This document shows positions 5,644 to 19,645 of a stretch of 26,019 nucleotides of DNA, piece after piece; position 1 is the first letter of the stretch; every line of letters begins with the position of its first letter. The position numbers and the translations under genes were made by a program. This stretch comes from a virus. The stretch spans positions 1 through 26,019 of IMG/VR virus record IMGVR_UViG_3300009074_001057; one strand, given 5' to 3'. The notes below the pieces were generated by a model. The model was not told where the DNA came from. It made no database searches and worked only from the letters and a program-made list of their open reading frames with translations.

Positions 5644-6486
5644 ATGGATTTAAATGCAATTAAAAAGCGTCTGAATGATTTTCAAAATCAGACAAACAGT
5701 TCCGGAGGTCAACAAAAACAACTATTCTGGAAGCCAACAGTAGGTAAACAACTAATTAGAGTTGCACCTAACAAATACAACAAAGATTTTCCATTTACGG
5801 AAATGAAATTCTACTATGGAATTGGTAGTAAACGAGTAATGGCATCTCCTTCAAATTGGGGTGAGAAAGATCCAATTATGGAATTTGCTAAACAACTTCG
5901 TGGAACTAGTGATAGAGAAAATTGGAGACTAGCTAAAAAATTAGACCCAAAAACACGTATTTTTGCTCCTGTAGTTATTCGTGGGCAAGAAGATGAAGGT
6001 GTTAAGCTGTGGCAGTTTGGTAAAGAAGTTTATCAAGAATTTTTGAATATGGCTGCTGATGATGAAATTGGTGATTTTACTGATATTGCTGGTGGTAGAG
6101 ATATTAAACTATCTACAGTAGGACCAGAAACAACAGGTACTCCTTATAATAAAACATCAATTGGACCATCTTTAAAAACATCTCCACTTCATGATGATGC
6201 TACATTAGTTGAAAGTTTGATGAATGATCAAGCAGATCCAATGAAGGTATTTAAACCACTTTCATATGATGAAATGAAAGTAGCCCTTCAAGAATGGTTA
6301 GCCCCAGAGGGTAGTGAAGAAGAAGGAGAAATAACTTCAGAACCTGCAGTAGCGTTTGACAGTGATGAAAAAAAGTCTAATTACTCATTAGATACAACAT
6401 CTACCAATGTTAAAAAGTCAAAAGCCGCACAATTTGATGATTTGTTTTCAGATGATAAAAATAAATCAGACGATTTACCGTTTTAA
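5644..6486 (+). CDS. gp32: gp32-like single-stranded DNA-binding protein with SSB-type DDLPF tail
   Basis: The 280-residue protein has the gp32-type layout: a basic N-terminal cooperative segment (KKRLNDFQ), an FWKPTVGKQLIRVAPNKYN strand set, a PFTEMKFYYG segment, and a long acidic Ser/Asp-rich C-terminal tail. It lies immediately before uvsX, as expected for T4-like recombination-replication genes. Two points are unusual. It contains no cysteine, so the zinc ribbon of T4 gp32 is missing; the region where Cys would sit reads VMASPSNWGEKDPIMEF. It ends in SDDLPF, the same kind of tip that bacterial SSB uses to recruit partner enzymes. It coats ssDNA during replication and recombination. The start is the first ATG after the promoter leader. 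Confidence 0.85.
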   Translation: MDLNAIKKRLNDFQNQTNSSGGQQKQLFWKPTVGKQLIRVAPNKYNKDFPFTEMKFYYGIGSKRVMASPSNWGEKDPIMEFAKQLRGTSDRENWRLAKKLDPKTRIFAPVVIRGQEDEGVKLWQFGKEVYQEFLNMAADDEIGDFTDIAGGRDIKLSTVGPETTGTPYNKTSIGPSLKTSPLHDDATLVESLMNDQADPMKVFKPLSYDEMKVALQEWLAPEGSEEEGEITSEPAVAFDSDEKKSNYSLDTTSTNVKKSKAAQFDDLFSDDKNKSDDLPF

Positions 6487-18627: not shown

Positions 18628-18647
18628 GCTTAATCTATATAGTAGAG

Positions 18648-18674
18648 AAAGGCGCCTTAATTGGCGCCTTTTTT
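18648..18674 (+). terminator. Strong rho-independent terminator
   Basis: AAAGGCGCC (18648-18656) pairs perfectly with GGCGCCTTT (18663-18671) around TTAATT, followed by further T residues to 18674. Six consecutive G-C pairs in this AT-rich genome make it the clearest terminator in the window. It separates the envelope block from the promoter-led genes that follow. Confidence 0.93.
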
Positions 18675-18692: not shown

Positions 18693-18721
18693 TTGGAGAA
18701 GCGGAAGAGGGTTCGTATATT
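18693..18721 (+). promoter_or_regulatory. Promoter element: TTGG-N15-TTCGTATATT
   Basis: Exact copy with TTGG at 18693-18696 and TTCGTATATT at 18712-18721, directly after the terminator and 47 nt before the next ATG. This terminator-promoter order marks a transcription-unit boundary, which independently supports a promoter role. It probably drives 18769 to about thyX. Confidence 0.75.
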
Positions 18722-18768
18722 TACGTATAAATAAGGGCGTTAAGCCAAGTATAAATTAAATAAAAGTT

Positions 18769-19095
18769 ATGTCAAAAGAAATTAAAGAAACATTAAAGAA
18801 AGGTAAAGTTGATTTTACAGTCACAGGTATTACTACTTATTGTAAAGGTGATGATGGTAAGTGGGGGATGAATCCAAAAGTATTTACTGTAAGTGAAAAA
18901 GGTGATTCAATTAATTGTGATTGGAATGGAATGAATGTTACTAAATGGGGTCCTACCTGTGTTACATTATATACATTTGATATGTTAGGTAAAAAATCAG
19001 TAGGGAAAATTAATTATAAAGACATTACACTAAAAGAAATAAAAGTAGAATGTTCAGCAGCATTAGATAATGAATGGGCTAACGAAAGTATTTAA
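18769..19095 (+). CDS. Hypothetical protein, 108 aa
   Basis: Unrecognised. A small soluble protein with a basic N-terminus (KEIKETLKKGKVDFTVTGI), then two Cys-containing segments (TTYCKGDDGKWGMN and GPTCVTLYTFDMLGKK) that read like a compact beta-sheet domain, and a C-terminal acidic helix. The first gene after the terminator/promoter pair, with leader ATAAAAGTT directly before ATG. Position suggests an early or middle accessory function. Nothing links it to a family. Confidence 0.55.
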   Translation: MSKEIKETLKKGKVDFTVTGITTYCKGDDGKWGMNPKVFTVSEKGDSINCDWNGMNVTKWGPTCVTLYTFDMLGKKSVGKINYKDITLKEIKVECSAALDNEWANESI

Positions 19096-19110: not shown

Positions 19111-19248
19111 ATGTTTATAGACATTGAAGTATTAGCAGATCAATGGGAATTAGAACAAGAACTAATAACCCAACTCCAAGAAGAATTATTAGAAAACCCA
19201 GGAATTTTCCTTACTGAAGAAGGGGAAGAAGATGATTTACCATTCTGA
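19111..19248 (+). CDS. 45-aa acidic protein ending in an SSB-like DDLPF tip
   Basis: A short ORF starting at ATG 19111 after an AAAATAAAATT leader, ending with TGA at 19246-19248, two bases before the SET-domain ATG. It is a helical acidic peptide (DQWELEQELITQLQEELLENP) followed by a GEEDDLPF end. The final five residues are identical to those of the gp32 at 5644 and match the C-terminal tip of bacterial SSB that binds many genome-maintenance enzymes. It therefore could compete for or recruit SSB partners. The gene is too short for composition-based prediction, so the spacing and leader are the main support that it is real. Confidence 0.6.
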   Translation: MFIDIEVLADQWELEQELITQLQEELLENPGIFLTEEGEEDDLPF

Positions 19249-19249
19249 T

Positions 19250-19645
19250 ATGAAAGTTCCAAATAATTTATATGTAAAGTGGACTGATAAAAAAGGCTAT
19301 GGAGTCTTCACAGACACACCTATTAAAAAGGGAGAACTTATTGAAAGATGCTATTGTATAAAAACTGGTAGTCCAAAAGACCATGTTAATGGTACTTTAA
19401 TGGATTATGTATTTAATTATCCTAGAGGTACTAGTATGGATAATGGAGCAGAACATGTATTACCTTTAGGTTTTGGTTGTATATACAACCATAGTAATGA
19501 TAATAGTAATGCAATGTGGGATAATACTAAAGATATACCTTACCATTTTGATTTTATTGCTTTAAAAAATATTGAAGTTGGGGAAGAAATTTGCACTTAT
19601 TATGGAGATGAATATTGGCCAACTAAAGACATATCACCAATATAA
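19250..19645 (+). CDS. SET-domain protein, possible protein lysine methyltransferase
   Basis: 131-aa protein starting at ATG 19250 (a longer in-frame start at 19232 would overlap the previous stop). It contains all the usual SET landmarks: KGYGVF (15-20), the start of the SAM pocket; CIYNHSNDNSN (77-87), corresponding to the NHS motif; a FDFIALKNIEVGEEICTYYG run (100-119), the conserved GEE-[IL]-xx-YG box. The minimal size equals an isolated SET domain without pre- or post-SET zinc clusters. SET enzymes methylate lysines using SAM. What it methylates in a bacterial cell (ribosomal proteins, host nucleoid proteins, phage proteins) is unknown. Confidence 0.82.
   Translation: MKVPNNLYVKWTDKKGYGVFTDTPIKKGELIERCYCIKTGSPKDHVNGTLMDYVFNYPRGTSMDNGAEHVLPLGFGCIYNHSNDNSNAMWDNTKDIPYHFDFIALKNIEVGEEICTYYGDEYWPTKDISPI

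Follow-up and report, generated by a model that had tools for sequence, protein, structure and literature searches.

The window analysed here, a virus record of 26 kb (26,019 nt), carries T4-type replication genes (gp32, a UvsX-like recombinase, a DnaB-like helicase, NrdA/B and ThyX) and also queuosine-type genes, as judged from database matches and reading of the ORFs. Cultured relatives of the phage suggest a host akin to Flavobacterium or Tenacibaculum. A short ORF starts with the ATG at 19111 and ends with a TGA whose last base is 19248; its product is a protein of 45 aa, MFIDIEVLADQWELEQELITQLQEELLENPGIFLTEEGEEDDLPF. The features of the window that bear on this ORF are as follows.

5644-6486, plus strand: gene of a gp32-like ssDNA-binding protein (PF08804, E 4.5e-13; phrog_1192), with the tip codons for DDLPF at 6469-6483
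18645-18674, plus strand: terminator-like hairpin, ahead of the promoter-like element
18712-18724, plus strand: promoter-like element TTCGTATATTTAC, ahead of the run of 108-aa, 45-aa and SET genes
18769-19095, plus strand: gene of a 108-aa protein, which adjoins the 45-aa ORF in close relatives (order swapped in L119 and L120); no Pfam match
19111-19248, plus strand: the 45-aa ORF, a predicted helix with a C-terminal SSB-type tip, as read from the sequence, homologues and pN/pS
19250-19645, plus strand: gene of a SET-domain protein (PF00856, E 1.2e-11)

The start of the SET gene was placed at 19250 because relatives begin there. The gene 3′ of the 45-aa ORF differs among relatives (SET, a metalloprotease-like protein and others), so an overlapping reading frame is not what conserves the 45-aa ORF. 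The 108-aa protein has the conserved core GMNVxKxGPTCVTLYTFDMLGKKxxGKI, occurs in many contigs that do not contain the 45-aa ORF and matched no family. In a related genome of 163,571 bp (G001), TTCGTATATTTAC was found in 19 copies with at most 1 mismatch, all of them on the same strand, in intergenic positions 16-137 nt upstream of a gene. The copies are often followed by a run like GGGTAAATGAGG. We take TTCGTATATTTAC to resemble the Bacteroidota TAnnTTTG promoter element.

Identical copies of the 45-aa ORF were found in seven other contigs, together with seven further variants in which residues 1-10, 12-18, P44 and F45 are unchanged. The SET neighbour as query gave ten contigs with the 45-aa ORF in place, and an alignment of the ORF itself gave 18 contigs. 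Judged by this conservation, the 45-aa ORF is a real gene and not a chance reading frame. The family is known from uncultivated virus contigs only. No match was obtained by tblastn in annotated phages, no Pfam or PHROGs family was matched, and PDB sequences gave matches at chance level only. Bacterial chromosomes did not yield the family; a search of 299 Flavobacteriaceae genomes, run without a positive control, gave one marginal match with an internal stop (E 0.009). The pattern M[FY]xDIE[VI], when searched in DNA, found mostly the exonuclease motif MFFDIEV of family-B DNA polymerases, which was taken as a chance likeness.

Eight distinct close variants could be aligned without gaps and were used to calculate pN/pS. 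Over the whole ORF pN/pS was 0.15; this and the values below are pairwise over related sequences, and the pairs are not independent. AlphaFold2 predicted a single helix followed by a floppy, low-confidence tail. The following parts can be distinguished.

19111-19164, plus strand: residues 1-18, the most conserved part in the close variants (pN/pS 0.02; only residue 11 varies among the eight)
19123-19194, plus strand: residues 5-28, predicted long helix (AlphaFold2, pLDDT about 80-90)
19207-19230, plus strand: residues 33-40, variable acidic linker (pN/pS 0.38; pLDDT about 51-55; unrelated sequence in L119 and L521)
19231-19245, plus strand: residues 41-45, DDLPF tip at the exact C-terminus (pN/pS 0.06, LPF 0.00; present in 14/20 distinct members)

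L43, P44 and F45 did not vary in the eight variants although their codons change silently (pS 0.61), and residues 33-40 vary freely. In these variants, conservation of the N-terminal helix equals or exceeds that of the tip. The preliminary description of this DNA had reported that the 45-aa ORF ends EEDDLPF and gp32 ends SDDLPF, and re-reading of the window confirmed both, the gp32 end being KNKSDDLPF. It had also named conservation of the C-terminus as a check on a function for the tip; selection on the last residues is strong in close relatives, and the loss of conservation that was to count against such a function did not occur. The tip is encoded by GAT GAT TTA CCA TTC in the 45-aa ORF and by GAC GAT TTA CCG TTT in gp32, and these synonymous differences indicate that the end of the 45-aa ORF was not copied recently from gp32.

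LPF is invariant in all tip-bearing members of the family. Their endings include EEDDLPF, EENDLPF, EEDGLPF and MEDELPF, with acidic residues right before the hydrophobic end. L119 (MYLDIEVQADRYEVEQELLQEIAKEDFENGEIVRIFTPQENDDLPF) has the helix in common with the 45-aa ORF and a different linker, but its end is still DDLPF. A later scan added L520, L521, L526, L535 and L539, every one of them ending in DDLPF or DELPF, and the element TTCGTATATTTA lies directly upstream of most newly found members. Among six diverged tip-bearing members, identity was 0.83 in the tip, 0.57 in the helix and 0.44 in the linker. Six of the 20 distinct members have no tip: L256/L517 (30 aa, helix only), L518 (32 aa), L522 (37 aa), and L241, L242 and L243, which carry a RQMNERERASLKTFNEQLENSFKK-like tail in its place. 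On the members compared here, the tip is thus not essential to the family. The tipless members and the swapped tails indicate a constant helix to which the tail is attached as a module. A RQMNERERASLKTFNEQLENSFKK-like tail was also seen on an unrelated N-terminus in L298, as a second exchangeable C-terminal tail. On the reverse strand of L119, a copy of the promoter-like element (GTTCGTATATTTACC) lies within the linker codons of the 46-aa homologue, directly before the next gene, and promoter and protein linker may share bases there.

LPF stands at the end of gp32 in 78/80 relatives, and the gp32 tip variants are those of the small proteins (DDLPF, NDLPF, DGLPF, DPLPF and DELPF). Host SSB ends in [LM]PF in 74/80 sequences from Flavobacteriaceae and relatives (LPF 72, MPF 2). 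That the tip is of SSB type, as first proposed from the sequence, agrees with its tolerated forms, DDLPF, NDLPF, DGLPF and DELPF, all of which match ends of gp32 and host SSB. Host DUF3127 (PF11325; L502-L514) ends in [HY]DDLPF in 12/12 Flavobacteriaceae sequences, and no paper on this tip was found. In G001, whose 45-aa ORF and gp32 are identical to the window copies, four genes end in [LIM]PF, whereas internal tripeptides predict 0.07 (Poisson P 9e-7); they are gp32, the 45-aa ORF, the gene of a 79-aa protein and that of a cupin with the end NLPF. In the related genome, the cupin-like protein (PHROG 'cysteine dioxygenase'; L301:4173-4580) ends DPKNLPF.

The 79-aa protein is a member of a second phage family, unrelated to the first, whose proteins are about 78 aa long (L307:3339-3578, L418-L494) and have the core KRYVVxMDMYVYAENDYMARKRAH; 55/58 distinct complete copies end in [LM]PF after a gapped, variable linker. 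This family matched no Pfam family, its structure gave no fold match, and it was not found in the 299 Flavobacteriaceae genomes, again searched without a positive control. A fixed link of this gene with a RecA-like ATPase was considered and rejected, since a Walker-A gene was nearby in only 20/59 loci. By these comparisons, the tip is not a peculiarity of gp32. Its presence on gp32, small proteins, SSB and DUF3127 indicates a C-terminal code shared by these bacteria and the phages that infect them, on non-homologous carriers.

Compared with the tip of bacterial SSB (SSB-Ct), the 45-aa protein has the same exact C-terminal position, a terminal Phe after Pro and a hydrophobic residue, acidic residues before them, a flexible linker of free sequence, and tolerated variants as in host SSB. 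Its carrier differs, being a 45-aa helical protein; no OB fold or gp32 DNA-binding domain was detected in it by Pfam or PHROGs, a single helix was predicted, and binding to the pocket is a prediction. T4-type gp32 (PF08804) shares the DDLPF end and the variant spectrum, but outside the tip the two have no sequence relation, and the 45-aa protein has no ssDNA-binding domain. DUF3127 is likewise a non-SSB protein ending DDLPF after an acidic stretch, but it is about 125 aa long, chromosomal and not homologous, and has its own domain, for which no Pfam match was found before the tip of the 45-aa protein. The 78-aa family is similar in being small and phage-encoded, with a variable linker that leads to a conserved [LM]PF end; its sequence is unrelated and matched no solved fold. 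In phage HK620 the SSB tip NDYPPF is the docking site that recruits the phage protein Sak4 (PMC5928155), but there the tip sits on the SSB itself.

In E. coli SSB-interacting proteins (SIPs), the terminal Phe of the tip is buried, its carboxyl is held by a basic lip and the Asp residues are placed along a basic ridge; a Pro-to-Ser change or loss of Phe weakens or abolishes SIP binding, and the SSB linker is a spacer whose sequence is unimportant (PMC10164576). A fixed LPF, exchangeable acidic residues and a free linker are the pattern that these rules predict. At the level of sequence, the comparisons establish a real gene with a selected helix and tip and a free linker, and a modular tip common to gp32, SSB, DUF3127 and the 78-aa family. 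The balance of the evidence leans modestly towards a bipartite docking protein, that is, a stand-alone SSB-Ct for SSB-tip pockets, borne on a helix with its own partner. The C-terminal DDLPF would work as a stand-alone SSB tip, with its last Phe, the carboxyl group of this Phe and the preceding acidic residues fitting the pocket with which SIPs such as RecQ, RecO, PriA, RecG or exonuclease I bind SSB. The N-terminal helix would hold a second partner, or would self-associate so that several tips are presented, and the 45-aa protein would tether or occupy SIPs away from ssDNA. We infer that the tip binds SIP pockets and that its readers are host proteins; what the helix binds is likewise a matter of prediction.

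The preliminary description had proposed that a free tip peptide titrates host SSB-binding enzymes. The part that rests on a conserved gene and tip stands, but a plain decoy does not need a conserved helix, and the helix is retained in 6/20 members that have no tip. In its pure form, in which an abundant free peptide titrates host SIPs and the helix serves for stability or solubility only, we consider this explanation unlikely. It would suit a small, acidic protein with the tip at its exact C-terminus and a host SSB with the same tip, and the 78-aa family shows the tip in use on more than one carrier; but a pN/pS of 0.02 in residues 1-18 needs a specific role, and the micromolar tip affinities of E. 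coli RecG (PMC10164576) would call for a high copy number. The strong conservation of the helix points to a second interface and makes a tether or adaptor more likely than a plain decoy.

Slightly less probable again is that a phage protein reads the tips of both the 45-aa protein and gp32, and places the former at the phage replication or recombination complex. gp32 has the same tip in most relatives examined, and phage proteins do read phage SSB tips elsewhere, as Sak4 does (PMC5928155). Moreover, the SSB of the cultured Flavobacteriaceae phages immuto and PTm1 has no tip, and no tip-ended satellite gene was seen in 150 of 160 kb and all of 225 kb read, respectively; in PTm1 the homologue of the 78-aa protein has the end NKLIER. 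This pattern would also fit a phage-internal reader. However, the strict link between gp32 tip and satellite tips that immuto and PTm1 suggest is broken in other genomes. In G368 and G369 gp32 ends FDDLFNE or FTDLFNE, and the 78-aa protein there ends PLPF or QLPF, so a reader need not belong to the gp32 circuit. Conversely, G022 has the tip on gp32 and no satellite, and in G028 and the L256/L517 contig gp32 has the tip and the 45-aa homologue has none. No such reader was identified. The SSB of the G368 and G369 hosts presumably has the tip, as is usual in their family, and the pattern in these two genomes is moderate evidence for host readers. A conserved internal motif, FDDLF, was seen about 15 residues before the tip of gp32 and its relatives, and the gp32 proteins of immuto, G368 and G369 stop at this motif or close to it.

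It is very improbable that the small proteins are kept short-lived by a terminal LPF acting as a ClpXP signal. LPF is such a tag in Streptococcus mutans, but GFP-DDDLPF accumulates equally with and without ClpXP in E. coli, and LPF goes unrecognised in S. gordonii and S. sanguinis (PMC5143411), for which reason we rate this explanation low; it also leaves unexplained why gp32, SSB and DUF3127, all of which need to be abundant or stable, share the tip. The idea that the end of the ORF has no function, being left over from gp32 or having reached the motif by drift, can draw on the identical tip sequence of gp32 in the same genome, but is hardly credible in view of the synonymous changes around a fixed LPF, tip codons unlike those of gp32, the excess of tip-ended genes over chance and the retention of the tip across diverged members.

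In bacterial genome maintenance the SSB tip serves as the main hub peptide, and it is also a drug target. A tag kept by selection, also on a second family, suggests that these phages use it to gain access to host repair proteins, separately from the binding of DNA. More tentatively, and short of an even chance, T4-like Bacteroidota phages may carry the tip on at least two unrelated small families with no recognisable DNA-binding domain, redirecting or blocking host SSB-binding repair enzymes even where gp32 has lost its tip. No description of stand-alone SSB-tip proteins in phages was found in the open-access literature, outside which most subscription journals lie. Unrelated small ORFs ending [DE]x[LM]PF would be the rule by which to look for more carriers. 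If the docking function is true, natural stand-alone tip carriers, selected in phages, would provide probes, ready for use, for the proteins that bind SSB in Bacteroidota, and would represent a way for phages to take over the SSB hub without an SSB.
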